The position numbers and the translations under genes were made by a program. The notes below the pieces were generated by a model. The model worked only from the letters and a program-made list of their open reading frames with translations. It was not told where the DNA came from and searched no databases. Shown piece by piece: positions 1 through 57,439 of a DNA stretch of 64,000 nt (within the stretch, counting starts at the first letter, position 1; every line of letters begins with the position of its first letter). The DNA comes from Zeus faber (Eukaryota > Chordata > Actinopteri > Zeiformes > Zeidae), in contig OY482855.1 in the NCBI GenBank assembly GCA_960531495.1, forward strand, positions 7,550,026-7,614,025, written 5' to 3'.

Positions 1-450
1 CAGGATCAGGAGACTCCCAGAAAAGTCAACCAAATACAGTTGGTGGATAATAAGAAGAAGAAAAAGAAACAAGCTGTGGTTATGCAGAGTCAGTCACAAC
101 TAAATCAATTACCACCACAACCACAGCAAGGACAGATTCAGGTACTACCACCTGTGGTATTCACTGTCTCCTTTCCACAGCCAGTTTTTGACCAACCACA
201 AACATGGAGAGGAAGAGGCCAAGGAAATTTAGGAAGAGGAAGAGGAGGAAATTTCCAACAGTCTCAAGGAGCGTGTCATAATTGTGGACAACAAGGTCAT
301 TTTGTACGTGACTGCTACAGGTTCAGAGGAGGCTTCAGAGGAGGCTTCAGAGGAGGCTTCAGAGGAGGCTTCAGAGGAGGCTACAGAGGACAACCACAGC
401 CACCCAGAGGACCAGCGAACCCTTACAGGGGTCCGGAACCTGGTTTCTAG
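1..450 (+). CDS. gag: ERV-A gag, nucleocapsid end (partial)
   Basis: The frame is open from the first base of the window to a TAG at 448-450, so the Gag start is outside the window. A lysine-rich stretch is followed by a glutamine/proline-rich segment. One CCHC zinc knuckle follows (C-x2-C-x4-H-x4-C, reading [14 protein letters not shown], about nt 273-314). Next come five RGG(F/Y) repeats encoded by a 12-bp tandem repeat at about 326-388, then a proline-rich end. In retroviruses this region binds and packages genomic RNA, and the RGG box is expected to add RNA binding. The TAG is followed in the same frame by pol, which points to Gag-Pol production by readthrough. No late-domain motif is visible in the part that is present. 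Confidence 0.85.
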
Positions 451-522
451 GGGTGCCCAGAAGACTCGAAAGGGAGGTGTCAGCTGGTAGTATCAGGGCC
501 GGAGCAAGATCCAAAAATAGAG
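448..522 (+). promoter_or_regulatory. gag-pol UAG readthrough junction
   Basis: The gag stop TAG (448-450) is followed directly by G and then by 24 sense codons in the same frame that lead into the protease. There is no overlap or -1/+1 frame change. This is the gammaretrovirus layout, where a few percent of ribosomes read through UAG with the help of a downstream RNA structure. The bases after the stop are G- and purine-rich, but I could not demonstrate a pseudoknot by eye. Confidence 0.6.
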
Positions 523-3500
523 GTGAAAATAAATGATAAGTCATTGGAAGTAATGGCAGATTGCGGAGCAGCTTTCACCTGTGTTCGGCCTGAAGATGCT
601 ATACATCTCCCCATGTCTGACCAATTGGTACGGACAATCGGGTTTGAGGGTGTGAAACAGCTGATTCCTCTCACAAAACCAACTGAGCTCTGCTGTAGAA
701 ATCGGAAAATCACACTACCTATTTTGGTGTCAGAACATACGCCCATTGCACTCTTGGGAAGAGATGCTATGTGCAAACTAAATTGCACAATACGGTGTAC
801 ACCGGACAGCTGTCTGGTGGATGTGCCACCTGATGTCTACCACCAATTATTTAGCGCACCAGAGACCGAGACTTCTTCAGTATATTGGATTGGAAATCTT
901 AGTCCAGAGCTATTAGAGCCAGCCAAGATGTGGGAGAAGTTCATTGTGGCAAATATGCCTGATGCTAAGCCCCCTGAGTATCCACATCACTGCACGTTGA
1001 AATATTTCAAGAAAACTGACCAATTGGATCCAGAAGAATGGTTGAGTAGTCAACCGAAGCATGTTCAGCTGACCTCATGCTGCATAATTGTGAGACCACA
1101 AGGAGCAGCTATGAAGATAAACATCAATGAATATCTTGAGAAAGAGTTTGACATTGTGAAAAGTGTGCCACATGTGACTTTAATGGTGGCTGAAGGATTT
1201 GAGCAGAAGCAAATAGGAGAAATGATGGCAGAAGCTGAGGAAGCCATTTTTTCACCAATAAAGGAGAATCTTGATATCTGGATAAGTGAAGAACAGAAGT
1301 TCATGAAAATCATGATTTCAGCTCAAGGACAAGGACAACCACAAGTGATACAGATGACACATGAGTCAATGTTCAGCGCTAAATTGGACTCAGACAGCAT
1401 GAGAGAGGAGATGCTGCAACAAATTCCAGAATGTTTGTGGTCACGACATAGTACGGACATCGGACTTGTGAAGTCAGCCCAACCGGTGAGAGTTGAACTG
1501 AGACCAGGAACCAAACCTCCTTGGAAGAACCAATATCCACTAAAGGAGGAGGCAATCAAAGGGATTGAACCACAAATTGAAGGACTGTTAAAAGCAGGTG
1601 TAGTGGAAATATGTTTGGATCCTCAGAGCAATACACCTATATTGCCTTTAAAGAAACCAGATGAGTCCTATCGCTTGGTACATGATTTAAGAGCGATAAA
1701 TGAAGTGGTGCAGGATTTTCCAGCAGATGTACCAGATCCACATACCCTGTTAGCCCAAATTCCTCCAGAGGCTACACACTTCACAGTGTTGGATTTGTGT
1801 GGAGCATTTTTCAGTGTTCCACTGAGCGAAGAAAGTCAAGGATTGTTTGGGTTCACGTACAAAGGACAAACCTTCAAGTACAAGAGGCTCCCTCAAGGAT
1901 TCAAACACAGCCCTCACATTTTCAATAAAGTATTGCAAGATGACTTGGCTGGGATTGATCAGATCTTGAAAAGTACTGTCATTCAGTATGTGGACGACAT
2001 CGTCATCTGTTCACCGGATAAGGAAACATGCCATGAGGATTCAATCAAACTGTTACAGCAATTGGCAGACAAAGGTCACAAGGCCTCTCAGAAGAAGCTA
2101 CAGTATTGTCAAGAAAAAGTTGTTTATTTGGGTCAAACAATAACCCATGGACACAGAAGCATCTCTGAGAGTCATTTGGAAGCCATTCGAACGGCACCAA
2201 AGCCTAGAACAGTCAGAGAGATGATGACATTTCTTGGCATTGCGGGATATTCTTCAGCCTGGGTAGAAGATTATGCCTGCCTAACAGAGCCTTTGAGAGC
2301 CATGATAAAAGAGACTGGGAATGCTCAACTCCATTGTAACCTCACCTGGACCCAGGAAGGTCTTATGGCATTTGAAACGATCAAACAGAGGCTACAAGAA
2401 GCTCCAGCACTAGCGCTGCCAGACTACTCTAAGAACTTTTTGCTGTATGTGGCTACGTCCACTGGAGGCAAATATGCATGTGCAGTTCTTGGTCAGCCAA
2501 CAGGTACAGGGACAAGTCCTCAACCTGTGTCGTATTATTCTACTGCCTATTCAGAAGTAGAATCGGGGCTACCACTGTGCTACAGAGCAATGGTGGGAGT
2601 TTATCTAATGTATGAGAAAGCATCATCACTAACTATGGGTTACCCAGTGACAATTCTTACCCATCATAGTCTCAGAAATCTTTTGAACTTCGGTAAATGT
2701 ACATTGACTATGTCTAGGCTAAGAGACTATCATAGGCTCTTAGAGCAGGAAGATGTCACCTTAGTAAGATGCGTCACGGTAAATCCAGCTGATAATTTAC
2801 CAACACCAGGGGATGGAGAGCCACATGATTGTATTCAGGAAGTAGAGAGATATGCAAAGCTCAGATCAGACTTGCAAGCTTTCCCACTTCATGTGTCAGA
2901 TGTGGAGTATTGGACTGACGGGTCCTGCTATCGAATAGAAGACACATTGAGTGCTGGTTATGCAGTAGTCAAAGCCCAGGGAACTGAATTTGTTGTTGAG
3001 AAAGCAGAAGTAATACCACAACCTGCTTCTGCACAGCTTGCTGAGCTTGTGGGCCTGACTGAAGCTTGTCTATTGGCCGAAGGCAAGCGAGTGACAATAT
3101 ATACAGATTCGGCATATGCACATAATGTGTGTCATTTATTTGGATCAGTATGGAAAAATCGAGGATTTAAGAAAACCGATGGTTCTCCGATACAGCATCA
3201 TGCCCAAATAATGAAATTGTTGCATGCAATGATGAAACCAAAGGAAATAGCTGTAGCTAAGTGTGCAGCTCACAAAATGGACACGTCAAGGGTCACACAA
3301 GGTAACAAAGCGGCTGATGAGGCTGCTAAAGCAGTTACAGGAGCAAACAAAGCAGGCAAGGTTCTTCTGGTCACTCATGAAGTGGACTTGGAAGATAAAA
3401 TCACGCTCAGAGATGTGATCGCGATGCAAGAAGCGGCGTCAGCCATCGATAAACAATTATGGTTGTCCCGAGGGGCCACACAAGATTCTACTGGTCTGTG

Positions 3501-4137
3501 GAGAAATCATGAAGGACTGATGGTAGCACCCCCTGACCTACTAGGTCTGATGATTCAGGAAGCACATGGGTTAGCCCATGTTGCAAGGGGGGAGGTAAGG
3601 AGAAAGATCACGAAAGAGTATGGTTTTTGGGCACCGTACTTGCTTGAGCAAATTGATTATGTCATAGGCAGATGCACAATCTGTCTTAAAAATAACGTTC
3701 GGAGGGGTGTGTTGAGTCCACCCGGTCACATTCCAACTCCGACAGGTCCTATGCGTGAGTTGGTTGTGGATTTTGTTGACATGATAAGACCAATAGGAGG
3801 TAAAAGATACATGCTAGTCGTCGTGGATAGATTTTCACGGTGGCCTGAGGCATGTCCAACCAAGCGTAAAGATGCTCAGTCGGTTGCCAAGTTCTTGTGG
3901 CGTGAGGTCATAAGCAGGTGGGGACTTCCAGATCGAATATCCTCAGATAATGGGAAAGAGTTCGTGGATAGAACAGTAAAATTAATTCTGCAAAAATTGG
4001 GAATTAAACAACGTTTAGGAGCTGTTTATCATCCACAAAGCCAAGGAGTTTGTGAAAAAATGAATGGTGTGCTGAAAAATGGCATTGTTAAAATCTGTCA
4101 GCATACAAGTCTGAATTGGGTAGAGGTGTGTAGTTAG
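451..4137 (+). CDS. pol: ERV-A pol: protease, 2H-like domain, RT, RNase H, integrase (truncated)
   Basis: Residues are numbered from nt 523; the frame is open from 451. Protease: active-site triplet D-C-G-A at 13-16 (usually DTG/DSG) and the flap-side LLGRD at 77-81. Residues about 135-268 are an extra domain with HCTL at 156-159 and HVTL at 217-220, described separately. Reverse transcriptase: about 330-590, with LPQGF at 456-460 and YVDD at 489-492. RNase H: about 795-940, with D799, E841, D862 and D932 as likely metal ligands. Integrase: zinc module H1015, H1019, C1051, C1054; catalytic D1083, D1142 and E1178 with a D-35-E spacing. The frame stops at 4135-4137 shortly after the catalytic Glu, so the C-terminal DNA-binding domain is missing. 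No frameshift interrupts more than 1,200 codons. Confidence 0.92.
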   Translation, partial: GCPEDSKGRCQLVVSGPEQDPKIEVKINDKSLEVMADCGAAFTCVRPEDAIHLPMSDQLVRTIGFEGVKQLIPLTKPTELCCRNRKITLPILVSEHTPIALLGRDAMCKLNCTIRCTPDSCLVDVPPDVYHQLFSAPETETSSVYWIGNLSPELLEPAKMWEKFIVANMPDAKPPEYPHHCTLKYFKKTDQLDPEEWLSSQPKHVQLTSCCIIVRPQGAAMKININEYLEKEFDIVKSVPHVTLMVAEGFEQKQIGEMMAEAEEAIFSPIKENLDIWISEEQKFMKIMISAQGQGQPQVIQMTHESMFSAKLDSDSMREEMLQQIPECLWSRHSTDIGLVKSAQPVRVELRPGTKPPWKNQYPLKEEAIKGIEPQIEGLLKAGVVEICLDPQSNTPILPLKKPDESYRLVHDLRAINEVVQDFPADVPDPHTLLAQIPPEATHFTVLDLCGAFFSVPLSEESQGLFGFTYKGQTFKYKRLPQGFKHSPHIFNKVLQDDLAGIDQILKSTVIQYVDDIVICSPDKETCHEDSIKLLQQLADKGHKASQKKLQYCQEKVVYLGQTITHGHRSISESHLEAIRTAPKPRTVREMMTFLGIAGYSSAWVEDYACLTEPLRAMIKETGNAQLHCNLTWTQEGLMAFETIKQRLQEAPALALPDYSKNFLLYVATSTGGKYACAVLGQPTGTGTSPQPVSYYSTAYSEVESGLPLCYRAMVGVYLMYEKASSLTMGYPVTILTHHSLRNLLNFGKCTLTMSRLRDYHRLLEQEDVTLVRCVTVNPADNLPTPGDGEPHDCIQEVERYAKLRSDLQAFPLHVSDVEYWTDGSCYRIEDTLSAGYAVVKAQGTEFVVEKAEVIPQPASAQLAELVGLTEACLLAEGKRVTIYTDSAYAHNVCHLFGSVWKNRGFKKTDGSPIQHHAQIMKLLHAMMKPKEIAVAKCAAHKMDTSRVTQGNKAADEAAKAVTGANKAGKVLLVTHEVDLEDKITLRDVIAMQEAASAIDKQLWLSRGATQDSTGLWRNHEGLMVAPPDLLGLMIQEAHGLAHVARGEVRRKITKEYGFWAPYLLEQIDYVIGRCTICLKNNVRRGVLSPPGHIPTPTGPMRELVVDFVDMIRPIGGKRYMLVVVDRFSRWPEACPTKRKDAQSVAKFLWREVISRWGLPDRISSDNGKEFVDRTVKLILQKLGIKQRLGAVYHPQSQGVCEKMNGVLKNGIVKICQHTSLNWVEVCS
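925..1326 (+). other. 2H phosphoesterase-like domain inside ERV-A pol
   Basis: Pol residues about 135-268 sit between the protease and RT, where gammaretroviruses have no domain. Two motifs of the form hydrophobic-H-x-T-L are present: H156-C-T158-L (nt 988-999) and H217-V-T219-L (nt 1171-1182), 61 residues apart. Each lies in a predicted beta strand and is preceded by a proline, as in 2H enzymes such as LigT/RNA ligase-like proteins, AKAP7 and the 2',5'-phosphodiesterases of some coronaviruses and rotaviruses. A first strand (FIVANM) and a last strand (KFMKIMIS) frame them. What is seen is the motif pair and its place; catalytic activity on 2',5'- or cyclic phosphates is inference. The spacing is shorter than the roughly 80 residues common in the family, which lowers certainty. 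Confidence 0.6.
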
Positions 4138-6729: not shown

Positions 6730-7167
6730 TCAGGCCAGGTCATCCATGTTGATGGTGGTGAGGTCCTCATTCGGACCTCCTCCACAGTCATCCCTTGGAC
6801 CGATAGAATCCGCCAGGGTCCGCAGCTGATCATCAGCAGCCTGAGTATGATCAGAGCCTGGGGATTTGACTGGTTCATACCTCCTTGCACTGGACTGGTC
6901 TCGGGCTCTCTGGAACCAGAGCCATGAGGATTCCTCCTCAGGTCTGAATCCCTGTCGTGGCCCCATAGTACACTGGTTAAGATGATACCATGTGGTGCGT
7001 CCTTCTACCTGAATGGCTGTTGGAGTCGCCCTGACCACCTTGTAGGGACTCTCCCTCCTTGGCTCGTTCCACCGTCTCCCCAGTTGACCTGGTTCCACCC
7101 CCCTTACTGGCTCTTCCTCGGGCTCTGGAACCCTGCTTCTCCCCTGTTGGAAAATCACTTTATACAT
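6730..7167 (-). pseudogene. ERV-B integrase C-terminal domain and beyond
   Basis: The frame carries SPYKVVRATPTAIQVEG and TTWYHLNQC, the small barrel domain at the end of gammaretroviral integrases (usual pattern GPY-V-L-TPTA-KV-G-W-H-S-C). An acidic, proline-rich tail of about 80 codons follows, which could be the start of an overlapping env in another frame. Frames further down (6455-6661) are not recognised. Confidence 0.6.
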
Positions 7168-7239
7168 AGCATACTAGCATACTTTATACATAGCATCAGG
7201 CAACTAACTGCATAGCAGTTAGTTGCCTGATATAATCTT

Positions 7240-8224
7240 TTAGTTCCATTTCCAATTTTTCCAGTGGTCTACCTTTGTAGGGCCCTCGGAGCACTGGTAC
7301 AGCATGTGTCTACCCGTTAGCACCTCATGCGGAGTTAGATGCGTCATTCTGTTAGCCTGCATGCGATAACTCATTAATGCCAGTGGTAGTGCATCTACCC
7401 AATTAAATTTAGTGCTTGCACAAATTTTGTTTATTTTTGTCTTTCCTGTTCCATTCACTCATTCAACCTTTACCTCTGACCGAGGATGGTACACACAACT
7501 TAATCTTTGTTTTATTTTCAAATGCTGTAGCACCTGTTTCACTGTTTTTTGAATGAACGACAAATCATTATCTGAGCTAATCCCAGTTGGAATACCAAAC
7601 CTTGGCATCACCTCTCTGGTCAGAAACGTTATCACCGTTCCTGCTTCATGGTCTGCTGAGGGAACCGTTTCCACCCATCTGCTAAACCTGTCAATCACCA
7701 CCAGCATTTATTTTTTCCCATGGACCTTCTTATTCATGTCTACGTAGGCTGAGACCAGATGTCTGAATGGTCCTTCAGGTGTTGGAATGTGTCCTAATGG
7801 GGTAGTGATTGTTTTTCTTACTTTTATTTTTTTAACATATCACATTCATTTCGTTGATTCTCAACCATTGTTTGCAAGTATGGTGACCAAAAACCTTGTT
7901 TTCTGATTTTTCTCACTATTTCCCCCCTTGCGCAATGGTTAAAACCATGCGCATTAGTGATAAGCAATACTAACAACGCTGTTGGTCTCGACAACATTTC
8001 ATCATGGGTTCTCCATAACCCTGTGTTATGGAGAACCCATGATGAAATGTGCTGCGCACAGCACCCCTCTTTATCCACATGTTTTGCTCATAAACATCAG
8101 CCTTGTCCTGCATCCTTACAATGTCATCCATGTTTGGTGCTGCTTCTGGGATTGACAGTGGTGCCTGTATTCCTGATACACTCTTCGATGCCTGTTTTGC
8201 TGCCTCAGCCGCATTGTTTCCCAA
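7240..8224 (-). pseudogene. pol: ERV-B integrase remnant
   Basis: Pieces in several frames match the integrase of ERV-A in order: the RNase H end and the start of integrase (7970-8224), the zinc module HGFNHCARGE with GFWSPYL (7824-8078), the core with VVIDRFSRW, SSDND and YHPRSE (7459-7707), and the late motif [10 protein letters not shown] (7240-7458). The catalytic second Asp is in SSDN; the catalytic Glu region is interrupted by a stop. A 57-bp palindrome at 7994-8050 breaks the frame near the zinc module. Confidence 0.75.
7994..8050. repeat. perfect palindrome, 26-bp arms, 5-bp loop
   Basis: Left arm 7994-8019 and right arm 8025-8050 are exact reverse complements around a 5-base loop (8020-8024). 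The left arm encodes, on the minus strand, the integrase motif TGLWRTHDE that aligns with TGLWRNHEG of ERV-A. The right arm is the inverted copy and has no counterpart in ERV-A. Confidence 0.95.
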
Positions 8225-8513
8225 GATAATATAATAATTTCCTTTTTCATGTGCCTGACACGTAACTATTGTTTAGGTAGTAGTAACAACAATGTCAGCA
8301 GATCATTAATCTGGGTGTGATGGAGTATTGGTGGACCGTCTGTTTTCTTATACCCTCTTTGCTTCCAAACTGTTCCAACAGATGACACACACCATGTGCA
8401 TATGCAGAATCTGTGTATATTTACCGTTTTTTTTTCTTTTGTTCCTTCTCGACAGTCGTAAGCACTTTCAACTCAACTAACTGTGTTGAACATGGCTATT
8501 TACAATAAGAACT

Positions 8514-8946
8514 TTAAATAACAGCAACCGTTTTGTCTGGGTTCTGTCTCACTGCTGCAAACTCTGTATGGTTTCCCAAATTATCTTTGTGGCAAGATCC
8601 ATCCACAAGCATCTCTTCTTCTGCCTTAACTATGGGTGTTAACAATATACTGTATCTAGAAATCAAAGAATCTTCTTCTGGGGTGACCTTCCTGATTGCA
8701 TTCCTAACACTTAATAGGCCATTTGTGATAGTTAAGGGGTCCCTGCTCCTGAGCATATCTAGACTGTCCTTGTTGCCCCCTATATTGTCTCTGTCTGTAC
8801 CCCTCATGTGGATGTTGTCTGGGGTTCTTAGCATATACATTGACTATAGGATTAGTGGGTGACCATGGGCCCTGCGGTTGCTGTACTGGTTGTGAACCTG
8901 GTTGAGCGAGCGAGGTCATTGGGTTAATCTCGACTGCAGCTACCAC
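8514..8946 (-). pseudogene. ERV-B nucleocapsid remnant joined to RNase H
   Basis: From 8946 down, a basic Gln/Arg-rich stretch of nucleocapsid type runs within about 100 bp into the RNase H start (VDGSCHKD, GNHTEFAAV in the frame 8514-8840). Protease and the whole RT are missing between them. An internal deletion removed about 2 kb relative to ERV-A. Confidence 0.6.
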
Positions 8947-9045
8947 GCCTTGTACTTTATTTTTTTCCTTGTATTTTCTTGTTAGCTCATCCAGTTGGAG
9001 CTGTGTCAGCTTTCTCTGTACCTCCTTGCCTTGTTCTGCCAGTCT

Positions 9046-9402
9046 CTACTCACTTTGACGGTGCTTATCGACAGCATGAATAACATGATCACAGTATTCC
9101 TTTTGGCTTTTAGATGAAGTCAATCCCACCACATGGTCCAACTTATTTCTGACTTGCCCTGGCAATGTCTCAAGCATTGAGTTCCTAAAGAGTACAGATA
9201 TGATCGAATCTGTTTCCAGGTCTTTGTCTGTCTCCATCTGCCATGTCTTGACCTGACTTTTGATATAAGAGGCAGGGTTCTTTGCCTCTCCCAGCAGTTG
9301 TCCCTTCAATGCTTTTGGATCTACACGGATCGGATACTCCCCCCTCAGTGCTTCCCACAGTTGTGGTCTGTATCCATCAATAGCAGTGCCATCCCAAAGC
9401 AC
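9046..9402 (-). pseudogene. gag: ERV-B gag capsid C-terminal part
   Basis: A 118-codon frame that reads like the C-terminal half of a gammaretroviral capsid: LWEALRGEYPIRVD, then a segment with ASYIKSQVKTWQMETD and LPGQVRNKLDHVVGL, the region around the capsid dimerisation domain. It sits between the matrix piece and the nucleocapsid/RNase H piece in the right order. The N-terminal capsid half (about 9403-9905) has no clear frame. Confidence 0.6.
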
Positions 9403-9905
9403 TTTGTGCGTAGCTTACTCTACTCATGCTGGTCACCCCTAGTACTCTAGCCAACAGCGCTTTCAGGTCTCCCACCGCTATTATCTTTCCCATTGTCTGC
9501 TCTTCAAATATTTTATCCACTTACTTGCTCTCTCATTTATGTTGGGTAAGGTCAATATTAAGTCTTGTGTTCCCTATGAGATATGTTGGCCTGTTTCTCC
9601 TTTAATTAATATTGGACATTGGGATTGGGCTACAAATAAAATATCCTGTATTTGGAGTGCTTCTTCTCTTTTCAAAGCTTTTATCTTTTCCTGCAACTGC
9701 TGGACAAATGATGAGCTCCTAGGTTGTCCTGAAGTTCCCTCACCTGGGTCTCATGTCCCTCCAGTCCAGGTCAGACAGAGAGCTGTCCCTCATACTCCAA
9801 GTCTGGATATAGGCTTCTGGCCATTTTTTCTTGTATCCTTTGTGACAGTCCAACGTTAGCTTTTTTTTCCAGGCTATCCTGTTCTCGTTTGTACTGTTCT
9901 TCTTC

Positions 9906-10329: not shown

Positions 10330-11280
10330 TTAATTTTTAATTTTTAATGCTTAACTATAGTATCAAACACTATTTTTTTGAAATTTGAAAATGTAAACTT
10401 AAACCACAAGTTAAACAAGCTATCTTTCTGTTACACAAGATTATAGTAACAAATAATAATTTATTGTTGTATATATAATTTTTACAATTATTCCACTTAT
10501 CTAGCCCTCCTTCTCTGACAGGGACGGAGTGGTATATGTGATTTCAACCCAACCTTAACTCTTCTATTCAACTCTTCTCTCCAGTGAAAAAGAGGAGGCC
10601 GAAAGGAGGCGGTACCCACAAATCTTTCAAATATTTGCTTATTTATTCATCTATTTTTATAGTTCTTAATCCACCTGTATATTAAATATAATTTTACATT
10701 AATTGATTTGCTTTTAGTTTATCATCACAATGTCATACATGGATTTTATCCTTACTTATCGGCTTATACTTATACACTCATACCTTTATATATTTTTACT
10801 TTACCTAAATACTGAAGAAAGTAATTAATTCTTTATTCCTTATACTTTTTAAATGATCCTAGACTTCTGTTTTTCTATTTCTTTCTCCTTCTCCGCTTCT
10901 GACCTCTGGACCCGACCTCTTGTTACCAATATAGCTCCTTAGGGTATTCTCTTACAGCCCCACTCGTCACACACTCAACTCCTTAGTTCTTTACAGACCT
11001 TCGCGGGAGTATTCCCTCGGGAATCATGCTCATCAACACAAACCGACACAATTCAATTTCCAACCTGTATATAAACTGTGTATACACACTAAGTTATCAG
11101 AATTCACAATAATTAGACAATATATTATAAACAGTTACTTTTAAGGGTCTTATCTACTTTAATCACAACATTTCTTACCACTATTATTATAAACCGCAAT
11201 TTCACACTTTATAGTTCCACAAGCAGTTTCATCAAACACAATTTCACAACCAGCTTTGCTGCTACAACACACACCCACTC
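10330..11280. other. AT-rich stretch upstream of ERV-B gag
   Basis: No coding signal. It should hold the ERV-B leader and perhaps its 5' LTR. A minus-strand TGGTAACAAGAGGTCGGG near 10914-10931 could be a primer-binding site because it starts TGG, but the base pair before it is not the CA expected at an LTR end. Confidence 0.3.
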
Positions 11281-11289
11281 ACACACACG

Positions 11290-11290
11290 T

Positions 11291-11385
<95 letters not shown>
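11290..11385. repeat. (CA)n microsatellite
   Basis: About 95 bp of nearly pure CA dinucleotides. Confidence 0.97.
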
Positions 11386-11387
<2 letters not shown>

Positions 11388-11544
11388 CACAGGGAAATGT
11401 CTTCCTTGTTTCCTCTGCTCTCTGCTCAAGTCCTTTTCCTTCACCAGCCAAATACAATTTCTATAATTTTATACTCCACCCGTTCAGTCCTTTGCAAGCT
11501 TTTTATTGCTAAGCAGTATCTGCAGTGTTCGGTTCTACCCAGCA

Positions 11545-12030
11545 AGACCCTCTAGAAGTGAACTTTCTTAAGGTGGTATCGTAGAACCTGTTAGTCTTTC
11601 CAAGCAGGCCCATATGAGACTTATCTCCTTAAGGCGGTATCATAGACTTCAGATTTCATCTGACCAAGCAGTCCCTCTTTATTTGAGGCGGTATCTCAGA
11701 ATAAAAACACACTTCTGACAGAGCAGGCCCTCTCTACTAGAGGTGGAATCTCAGAATAAAAACACACTTCTGAACAAGTAGTCCCTCTCCACTAGGGGCG
11801 GTATCTCAGAATAAAAACACACTTCTGACCAAGAATATCCCCTCTACTAGAGGTGGTGTCTCAGAATAAAATCACACTTCTGACCAAGCAGACCCTCTCT
11901 ACTAGAGGCAGTATCTCAGAAGTGCACCTTCCTCTAACCATTCAGAACGTCAAGAAACCCTTCTCTGAGGTGGTATCGTAGAAACCTGCCCTGTCCTTTA
12001 TAGTATTTTTCCTCTAATTTGTATCCATAA
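11545..12030. repeat. minisatellite array 1, about 55-bp unit
   Basis: Seven or so diverged tandem units of about 54-56 bp. Each has a 'ctactagaggcggtatctcag' core followed by 'aataaaaacacacttctgac' and 'caagcagtccctct'. The array ends in a unique tail ('cctgccctgtcctttatagta') that recurs after array 2. Confidence 0.9.
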
Positions 12031-12074
12031 GTTCACAGGTTTATTTTACTATTATTATGATGATTATTTTTGTA

Positions 12075-12800
<726 letters not shown>

Positions 12801-12824
12801 TTTATTTATTTCAAATACCATCAA

Positions 12825-13400
12825 CAATAAATCACAGAGCTTTTAAAAATATCAACAATGAACCACAAGGTTTTGAAAAAAAACAATAAACTCCAATGCT
12901 TTTCAGAAAATACCAGCAATAACCCATACAACTTCTGACATTACCTGCAATAAACCACAAGGCTTCCAAAAATATCAGCAATAAATTACAAAGCTTTTCA
13001 AAAATATCAGCAATAAACCATAAAGCTTCCGAAAATATCAGCAGCAAACTACAGAGCTTTTCAAAAATATCAGCAATAAGCCATAAAGCGTTCGAAAATA
13101 TCAGCAGCAAACTACAGAGCTTTTCAAAAATATCAGCAATAAGCCAATGAAGCTTCCGAAAATATCAGCAGCAAACTACAGAGCTTTTCAATAATATCAA
13201 CAATAAGCGATAAAGCTTCTGAAAACATCAGCAATAGCCCATATAGCTTGCTAGAATATCAGCAGTAAACTACAGAGCTTTTCAAAAATATCGGCATTAA
13301 GGTAAAATAGCTTTCGAAAATATCAGCAGTAAACTACAGAGCTTTCAGAAATATCATCAGCACTTCAACAAACCAAAAAACTTTCAAAAACCTTATTAGC
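12825..13400. repeat. minisatellite array 3, about 60-bp unit
   Basis: Tandem units built on 'actacagagcttttcaaaaatatcagcaataa' alternating with 'gccataaagcttccgaaaatatcagcag'. A second, shorter block of the same family is at about 13865-14090. Confidence 0.9.
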
Positions 13401-13427
13401 AATTTATTTATAAATCACAAAGCCTGA

Positions 13428-13860
13428 GTAAAAACACACTTCTGACCAAGCAGTCCCTCTCCACTAGAGGCAGTATCTCAGAATCAAAACACACTTCTGA
13501 CCAAGCAGTCCCTCTATACTTGAGGTGGTATCTCAGAATGAAAACACACTTCTGACCAAGCAGATCCCCTCTACTAGAGGCAGTATCTCAGAAAAAAAAC
13601 ACACTTCTGACCAAGCAGTCCCGCTCTACTAGAGGTGGTATCTCAGAATAAAAACACACTTCTGACCAAACAGTCCCTCTCTACTAGAGGCGGTGTCTCA
13701 GAATAAAAACACACATCTGACCAAGCAGACCCTCTCTACTAGTAGCAGTATCTCAGAAGTGAAACTTTTTCTAACCATTCAGACCCTCGAGAGACCCTTC
13801 TCTGAGGCGGTATCTTTGAAACCTGCCCTGTCCTTTATAGTATTTTTTCTCTAATTGGTA
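13428..13860. repeat. minisatellite array 2, same unit as array 1
   Basis: Seven units of the 55-bp repeat seen at 11545-11960, followed by the same tail. Arrays 1 and 2 therefore look like two ends of a duplicated block with other satellites between them. Confidence 0.9.
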
Positions 13861-13864
13861 GCCT

Positions 13865-14090
13865 ACTTTTCAAAAATATCAGCAATAAGTCAATAAAGAT
13901 TCAGAAAATATCACCAGCGAACTACAGAGCTTTTCAAAAATATCAGCATTAAGGTGAAATAGCTTTAGAAAATAATAGCAGTAAACTACAGAGCTTTCAG
14001 AAATATCATCAGCACTTCAGCATACCAAAACTTTTCAAAAACCTTATTAGCAATTTATTAATAAATCACAAAGCTTTAATCTGCAATTTA
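13865..14090. repeat. second block of the 60-bp minisatellite
   Basis: Same units as 12825-13400, including the 'agaaatatcatcagcacttca' end, so the order array-tail then 60-bp repeat occurs twice. Confidence 0.85.
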
Positions 14091-52765: not shown

Positions 52766-54716
52766 CGCAAAGCATTCAAATTCTCTCCTCTCTCCTTCAT
52801 TCCGCTGCTCCCGTTAGGGGTTGCCACAGCGGAACATCTGCCTCCAATACCTTCTATTCTGCGCATCTTCCTCCCTTACACCAGTCACCTGCATGTCTTC
52901 CCTCACCACACCCATAAACCTTCTCTTTGGCCTTCCTCTTTTCCCCTTGCCTGGCAGCTCCATTGTCAGCATCCTTCTCCCAATGTAACCCTCATCTCTC
53001 CTACACACGTGTCCAAACCATCTCAATCTCGCCTCTCTCACTTTTTCACCAAACTGTCCAACCTGAGCTGTCCCTCTAATGTATTTATCCTTAATCCAGT
53101 TCGTCCTTGTCACTCCCAATGAAAATCTCAACATCCTCAACTCTGCCACCGCCTTTTTGTCAGTGCCACCGCCTCTAAACCGTACAACATAGCTGGTCTC
53201 ACTACCGTCCTCTAGACCTTCCCCTTCACTCTTGCTGGAACCCTTCTGTCACAGATCACTCTGGACACTGTTCTCCACCCACTCCACCCTGCCTGTACTC
53301 TCTTCCTCACCTCTCCCCCGCACTCTCTGCTGCTTTGGATGGTCGACCCCATGTACTTGAACTCATCTGCCTTCTCCACCTCCACTCCTTGCATTCTCAG
53401 CTTTTTGCCGCCCTCCCTACCATTCAGGCACATGTATTCTGTCCTACTCCTGCTGACTTTCATTCCTCTTCTCTCTAATCCATGCCTCCACTTCTCCAGG
53501 CTCTCCTCAACCTGCTCCCTACTCTTGCTACAGATAACAATGTCATCCGCGAATATCATAGTCCATGGAGACACCTGTCCATCACCTTTGCAAACAAGAA
53601 AGGGCTCAAAGCTGATCCTTGATGCAATCCCACCTCCACTTTGAATGCCTTTGTCAAGCCTATTGAACACCTGACTACTGTCTGACTGCCCTCATACATA
53701 TCCTGTACCACTTTTACATACTTCTCTGCCAACCCTCTGACTTCCTCACGCAATACCACACTTCCTCTCTCGGCACCCTATCATATGCTCTCTTTAAATC
53801 CACAAAGACGCAGTACAACTCCCTTTGGCCTACCCTGTACTTTTCCATCAGCATTCTTAAAGCCAACATTGCATCTGTAGTACTCTTTCCTGGCATGAAA
53901 CCATACTGCTGCTCGCTGATCCCCACCTCTCCTCTTAACCTAGCCTCCACTTCCCTTTCCCATAGCTTCATGCTGTGGCCGATATATTCCCTGTAGTTAC
54001 TACAGCTCTGTACGTCTCCCTTATTCTTGAAGATGGGTACCAGTACACTTCTTCTCCACTCCTCCGGCATCCTGTCTCTTTCCAGGATTGCATTAAACAG
54101 TCTCATTAGGAACGCCACTGCCATCTCACCTCAACATTTCCATGCTTGCTGTGTTATGTCATCTGGGCCAACTGCCGTTCCACTCTTCATCTTCTTTACT
54201 GTTATTCTCACCTCATCCTTGCTAATTTGCTGCACTTCTTGAACCACTATCCCCACATCATCCACTCTTCTCTCCCTCTCATTTTCTCCATTCATCAACT
54301 CCTCAAAGTACTCCTACCTTCGCAACACATGCTCCTCACTAGTCAGCACATTCCCATCATTATCCTTCATCACCCTAACCTGCTGTACACCCTTCCCAGC
54401 TTGGTCCCTTTGTCTTGCCAATTAGTACAAGTCCTTTTCTCCTTCCTTACTGTCCAACCTCTCATACAACTCATTGTATGCCTTTTCCTTTGCCTTGTGC
54501 CGCATCAGCTTGTACTCCTGTCTACTTTTTTCATCTCTCTGACCATCCCATTTCTTCTTCACCAACCTCTTCTGCTCAATGCTCTCCTGTAGTTCCTCAT
54601 TCCACCACCAAGAGTCCTTGTCTTCCTTCCTCTTCTCGCATGATGCCAAGTACCTTCTTGGCCATCTCCCTCACCACTTCTGCAGTTCTTTCCCAGTCAT
54701 CTAGTAACCATTCCTT
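52766..54716 (-). mobile_element. 5'-truncated RTE-type LINE
   Basis: Minus strand. Starts inside the linker before RT (54649: KEDKDSWWWNEELQES), carries the RT and ends at 52766 with 'ggttgccacagcggaa' near the 3' end, a typical RTE terminus. No endonuclease. Several stops and frameshifts. Confidence 0.85.
52814..54649 (-). pseudogene. RTE-type reverse transcriptase
   Basis: Motifs in order: MPEEWRRSVLVPIFKNKGD, SNYREYIGHSMKLWE, ISEQQYGFMPGKSTTDA, VFVDLKRAYDRVPRE (53714-54124); VEVGLHQGSALSPFLF (53556-53759); MIFADDIVICSKS with the catalytic ADD (53212-53670); and the C-terminal LRWFGHVCRRDEGYIGRR (52814-53149). Four frames are needed to follow it, so it is dead. Confidence 0.88.
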
Positions 54717-56744: not shown

Positions 56745-57439
56745 CTGTCCCAGCATGAAGTGCTAACTGGCAGACCAATGCGGTTCAGTCTGTCTTCTGT
56801 CGACAAAAGCCACATATGAATTAGATCACGTGAACCAGTAGGGATCAGATTGTCCAGTTTAGTATTTATCACTTTTAGGTTTGACTTTATTAATGGATTG
56901 TGTAGATAGGATTATGTTCAGGCAGCATTCGAAAAATGCATTCTAGGAAATTTAAAAACCTTGCATGATTTACATGCTGTTAGTTATTTTGTAGCCTTAT
57001 CGATATTCTATTAACTTTATCTCCTACATATTAGACATTGTGATAATATTATTCTGTTGTTACATGAGTGTGCATACATTTATTTTTGAGTCTGTCGTCG
57101 TCTATTCAACATAACTGCTTGGGAAATCACAGAATGTACGTACCCAATTTTACAATTGTGGACCTATACCAAACTATTTTGTCATAATGTGTGTCTTTTA
57201 CCCAAGTGTTTAAGTCTATGTGCCCAGGTCAGGACCTATACACGACCTCTGACCGGATGACTGGGGTGGTGAGACTTCCGGAGGAAAAGCTGAATCTCTC
57301 CACATTCCTGGGACCATTCCAGATCCTCCGCACCACTGCAGCAGCAGTTAAGGTGGCAGAACAACCAACGTGGGTACACGCATTTTACTGCAAGAAAATT
57401 TCTACTCCCCTCGAGGTACTTGCTGAGGAGACAACGTAA
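56745..57439 (+). pseudogene. pol: ERV-D integrase end
   Basis: At about 56748 a frame reads HEVLTGRPMRFSLS, matching [10 protein letters not shown] of ERV-B. In 57191-57439 the C-terminal domain reads LGPFQILRTTAAAVKVAEQP followed by TWVHAFYCKK, matching the ERV-B domain and the general gammaretroviral pattern. The two are separated by about 360 bp of broken sequence. Confidence 0.75.

Follow-up and report, generated by a model that had tools for sequence, protein, structure and literature searches.

We analysed a 64,000-nucleotide stretch of the Zeus faber genome (contig OY482855.1; hereafter the window) that carries part of an endogenous retrovirus (ERV). Positions 871–1356 of the window lie in frame between the protease (PR) and the reverse transcriptase (RT) of its pol and are predicted to encode a CNPase-like domain of the 2H phosphoesterase superfamily, which on balance we expect to have acted as a phosphodiesterase in the virus particle. 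Comparison with related proteins suggests that this is a real and likely old Pol domain, present across a broad range of fish ERVs.

The structure was modelled from window positions 844–1392, and the domain corresponds to model residues 10–171. The predicted structure shows the two-lobed, duplicated alpha/beta fold of the 2H superfamily, with one HxT motif in each half (HCTL and HVTL), the arrangement by which the superfamily is recognized. A sequence-only reading of this DNA had pointed to paired motifs at H156 and H217, in frame with protease and RT, and had expected a 2H-type fold. The motifs are there, the frame from 451 to 4137 is uninterrupted across the protease, the 2H segment, RT and RNase H, and the model gives a two-lobed 2H sheet resembling that of CNPase. 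The same reading placed the domain at 925..1326, which is the right location, but its extent in the model is larger. Given this model, the segment almost certainly has a 2H fold. HxTL occurs 26 times over the six frames of the window and a lone HxTL is therefore weak evidence; this, and the lack of a Pfam match for the window copy, could be taken to mean that a hydrophobic linker with two HxTL motifs by chance was mistaken for an enzyme. We rejected this explanation, which we regard as very improbable, because the predicted fold is nearest to CNPase and the motifs are kept across relatives, a combination that exceeds chance.

Relatives were collected in three protein searches. The first two (19 and 11 matches) were seeded on the 2H domain and the third started from a profile built on eight complete pols (47 matches, 36 of them new), giving 66 proteins in total. 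Forty-three of these span both motifs, 12 hold part of the domain and 11 have no significant match to it; the last group consists of four proteins that start close to RT (P0041, P0043, P0046 and P0056) and seven distant reverse-transcriptase proteins (P0061–P0067). The 2H domain is located no more than 33 residues behind the protease in all 40 proteins that were matched by the window protease (17/17 among those new in the third search), and the order protease-2H-RT was found in 34 of the 34 proteins that have both protease and RT. All four catalytic residues are retained in 39 of the 43 relatives spanning both motifs, which agrees with the earlier expectation that both H-x-T motifs would be kept, while identity to the reference row P0021 is below 50% in 13 of the 43 and falls to a minimum of 26%. 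The named close relatives are all from fish; P0047 of Oreochromis also carries a ferret label in one source.

Mean pairwise identity among ten rows (the window and nine long relatives) was 0.61 for the 2H domain, 0.67 for the linker that follows it, 0.74 for the protease, 0.75 for RT and 0.78 for RNase H. Judged from these alignments, 2H is the least conserved of the compared parts of pol, yet its motifs are retained. One tree for RT and one for the 2H domain were built from the window plus 21 selected relatives. Each sets apart P0047, P0055, P0057 and P0058, and the same 15-row group was recovered in both (support 99 and 88). Many inner forks are unsupported and some rows are long-branched. 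The agreement suggests one acquisition before those splits, followed by descent together with pol.

Profiles were built from three sets: A2 (24 of 31 rows, namely the window and 23 of 30 proteins, excluding P0015–P0020 and P0023), A3 (the window and 12 chosen domain-only pieces) and A6 (the window and 12 chosen, mostly distant pieces). In Pfam, four of the 24 A2 rows match PF13563 (best 0.0047) and four match PF02834 (best 0.044). Among the 13 A3 members, nine match PF02834 (best 9.2e-4) and eight PF13563 (best 1.3e-4); the 2H matches of six A3 members lie at the first motif in some and at the second in others. When A6 was compared to PDB sequences, 16 of the 21 rows up to E 10 were CNPase or plant cyclic phosphodiesterase, none of them significant, and the best stretches of the CNPase rows run from profile positions 43–47 to 97–98, the region that holds the first motif.

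Several results weigh against the assignment or its spread. The sequence-only reading had looked for a profile match to 2H families; the single-sequence Pfam search of the window copy gave none, weak matches appeared in relatives, and wherever a cut-off was printed these fell below the curated value. In the more diverse A6 set only two of 13 members match PF02834 (best 0.026) and three PF13563 (best 0.024). A phmmer search of the window copy against PDB sequences returned nothing relevant and the A3 profile had no match there; the best CNPase or plant cyclic phosphodiesterase row obtained with A6 has an E-value of 0.25 and ranks below two unrelated proteins, and the CNPase rows represent only a handful of proteins in variant forms. 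Three of the five models in the first structure prediction were poor (33–36). Protease-type Pfam entries without a 2H domain occur in four of the distant reverse-transcriptase proteins (P0062, P0063, P0065 and P0066), and the figure of 40/40 leans towards 2H presence because every query contained the domain. Finally, one or more catalytic residues are missing in four of the 43 relatives: in P0055 the first His is Tyr, in P0007 the two Thr are Met and Ala, and P0051 and P0053 have Val and Ser, respectively, in place of Thr.

Searches of wider collections returned little. NCBIfam gave two single-member matches, neither to a 2H family, and PHROGs gave weak matches only (best 0.0085 to a nameless family and 0.065 to an RNA-ligase family). 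No match was found by tblastn in phages, and pattern scans of viral contigs with four queries matched 7, 32, 2 and 43 stretches, none of which was confirmed. A six-frame search of the window with the A6 profile found no second 2H domain (next best E 0.96); the match to the window's own copy is by construction, as the profile contains it.

Among solved folds the predicted domain is closest to CNPase and next to the fungal enzyme 6u05, both of which we take to act on 2',3'-cyclic phosphates. A LigT-type origin was also considered and set aside, its Z being lower than that of CNPase in both models, a comparison that ranks folds only. Vertebrate CNPase and goldfish RICH show 13–19% identity. In the CNPase family proper a kinase-type P-loop domain precedes the catalytic domain, whereas here the domain follows a retroviral protease, with no kinase-type domain seen there by Pfam. 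Since the retroviral protease is the sole Pfam family above cut-off upstream, the domain is better described as working like CNPase than as being a CNPase.

The sequence-only reading knew of no described retrovirus with this arrangement; the literature does not support the view that such a domain is new to retroviruses. Walleye dermal sarcoma virus (WDSV) has been named as a 2H carrier (PMC9503650), and an excerpt of PMC4977317, citing Basta et al. 2009, mentions additional open reading frames such as CNPase in some ray-finned fish ERV sequences. The latter are likewise CNPase-like genes in epsilon-like fish ERVs, but are termed additional open reading frames in that excerpt, a term that may or may not refer to a domain within Pol like that of the window copy. 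When the 2H model was compared with a viral structure library, the named entries that matched best were WDSV (E 4.7e-8) and walleye epidermal hyperplasia virus 1 (E 1.2e-9); with a model of protease and 2H together the values were 2.2e-7 and 1.5e-9. These walleye epsilonretroviruses have a fish retroviral 2H domain, as does the window ERV, but their matching records are labelled Envelope polyprotein. The sole WDSV Gag-Pol record among the 50 matches listed, A4GTG2_1 (an 875-residue piece), had an E-value of 0.31 and a probability of 0.11 with the protease+2H model. According to PMC3185748, WDSV Env has two membrane helices with a cytoplasmic loop between them at about amino acids 874–1045 (about 170 residues), which would leave room for a 2H domain.

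The best match in the structure library was Q2VF30, at 22–24% identity and E 8.1e-12 with the 2H model. Adding the protease to the model lowered this E-value to 1.5e-15, while neither of the other two top matches gained. Q2VF30 is probably a Gag-Pol protein from the swim bladder sarcoma virus of Atlantic salmon. The gain suggests that protease and 2H may stand there in the same order as in the window ERV. The WDSV Env alignment also lengthened, from 193 to 263 columns (rmsd 26), with a worse E-value, so a longer alignment alone proves nothing and only the better E-value of Q2VF30 counts. Our literature search found no account of a 2H domain in this PR-RT position; its coverage did not extend to Mazumder 2002 and Basta 2009, and we therefore do not claim that the arrangement is unpublished. 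PMC2684134 (2007, from the same group as Basta 2009) does not mention phosphodiesterase or CNP. Fish retroviral 2H or CNPase-like domains are therefore already on record, and the additions made here are the place inside Pol and a probable old age. The kind is known, and the Pol location looks like a variant of it.

The domain was likely catalytically competent in the active ancestor, and it was probably associated with the particle. Gag-Pol would be made by readthrough of the TAG at the gag/pol boundary, giving 2H at Pol dose in the particle, and the viral protease would either release or retain it. Like other 2H enzymes, the domain would cleave either 2',5' bonds or 2',3'-cyclic phosphates, with its two His/Thr pairs as the catalytic residues. 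In the last and weakest step, a host nucleotide signal would be destroyed around the incoming core, for example a cyclic dinucleotide made on sensing viral cDNA.

A role against a host signal, as opposed to RNA-end processing or assembly, is the target that we tentatively prefer. Cyclic-dinucleotide signalling responds to retroviral cDNA, and this, together with the fast change of the domain, favours such a target. So does the degradation of 2',5'-oligoadenylate (2-5A) or cyclic GMP-AMP (cGAMP) by the viral 2H enzymes described in excerpts of PMC11410667. The antagonists treated there, namely the 2',5'-phosphodiesterases of coronaviruses and rotaviruses, avipox LigT-like proteins and phage Acb1, also set a two-His fold against nucleotide signals; they are termed LigT-like in those excerpts, while the window domain is nearer to CNPase by predicted structure and lies inside a retroviral Pol. 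As fish are listed among the carriers of OAS in an excerpt of PMC6307210, 2-5A is retained as an optional target.

The CNPase-like fold, with 6u05 as the next neighbour and the cyclic-phosphate substrates that we presume for both, makes it nearly as likely that the active enzyme served RNA ends in the particle or the infected cell, for instance by opening the 2',3'-cyclic phosphates that host ribonucleases leave on the genome, the tRNA primer or fragments, and that no host signal was targeted. Processing of such ends has been suggested as a possible function of some 2H domains of RNA viruses (PMC9503650). We hold this to be possible, if somewhat doubtful: Pfam saw neither a ligase nor a 2'-phosphate remover in pol, turning a cyclic phosphate into a 2'-phosphate is not enough on its own to heal an RNA, and conservation below that of PR and RT suits a host-facing role better.

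The four relatives with substituted catalytic residues are what would be expected if the domain did not cut at all and served in Gag-Pol as a folded spacer, an RNA binder or a Gag-binding module. A CNPase-like fold can touch Gag: an excerpt of PMC7471995 lists host CNP as binding matrix and inhibiting the formation of HIV-1 particles. A scaffold, however, would not need the four residues that 39 of 43 relatives keep despite such divergence, and single losses would be explained by the decay of ERV copies after insertion; we consider a non-cutting role improbable.

A broader and more speculative scenario, unlikely to hold in full, is that 2H is a standing fifth Pol enzyme of a large and old fish retrovirus clade and is related to the walleye Env domain. 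One captured enzyme would then have ended up in two polyproteins, and it would travel with the particle to switch off a host alarm triggered by reverse transcription, whether cyclic-nucleotide or 2',5'-linked. If active, the domain would be a retroviral enzyme beyond the usual four that was retained in Pol across a broad range of fish ERVs; it would also offer a natural way to test whether retroviruses carry in the particle an enzyme against nucleotide alarm signals. Whether the Pol location here and the Env label in walleye viruses reflect one capture that moved or two captures is testable with public sequences.

The features of the provirus are collected in Table 1. It has traits of epsilon/gamma-like (class I) ERVs, with gag and pol in the same frame across the TAG, and its Pfam domains follow one another as protease, RT, RNase H and integrase core. 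RNA folding of positions 448–540, near the TAG, showed no unusual stability (z -0.16; pseudoknots are outside the folding model). The sequence-only reading called protease and RT intact, but pol as a whole is not: the window copy is no working provirus, as its pol halts in the integrase region where relatives continue. The long relatives P0025, P0026 and P0028–P0031 are 1457–1498 amino acids long, against 1228 codons here, and similarity on the + strand to the integrase tail of P0025 stops at 4122.

Table 1 Coordinates of the provirus features in the window.
Feature	Position	Strand	Evidence
3' end of gag, one CCHC zinc knuckle and GGFR-type repeat	1..450	+	zf-CCHC E 3.5e-05; ends at TAG 448–450
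In-frame TAG at gag/pol boundary, putative readthrough arrangement	448..450	+	sequence
pol open frame, 1228 codons, early end inside integrase region	451..4137	+	
Aspartic protease PF00077	526..792	+	Pfam E 2.8e-04, 21.6 bits, cut-off 20.7
2H phosphoesterase-like domain, predicted CNPase-like fold	871..1356	+	structure prediction, motif conservation in relatives
First motif HCTL (H156 of pol counted from 523)	988..999	+	first His in 42/43 relatives spanning both motifs
Second motif HVTL (H217)	1171..1182	+	second His in 43/43 relatives spanning both motifs
Linker from 2H domain to RT	1357..1494	+	identity 61–89% to nine long relatives
Reverse transcriptase PF00078	1651..2142	+	Pfam E 3e-30
RNase H PF00075	2899..3333	+	Pfam E 9.4e-22
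Integrase core PF00665, frame end shortly downstream	3745..4035	+	Pfam E 2.4e-20

Another ERV of the wider clade, in decayed form, is located at 6802–9508 on the - strand, with RNase H and integrase pieces near gag-like sequence; it is nearest to P0046 of Esox (56–62% identity in the pol pieces at 8260–6925). No 2H domain was found at 6802–9508, so the protease-2H-RT part seems to have been deleted there. Two smaller fragments were also observed: an RT-like one at 53434–53667 on the - strand (29% identity to the window RT across 79 residues, E 5.8e-05), and one at 57311–57403 on the + strand that resembles the integrase tail of a fish ERV pol (E 4.9e-07 to P0056). Positions 11249–14000 contain a CA microsatellite and, behind it, arrays spaced at 8–12, 31/63 and 55 bases.
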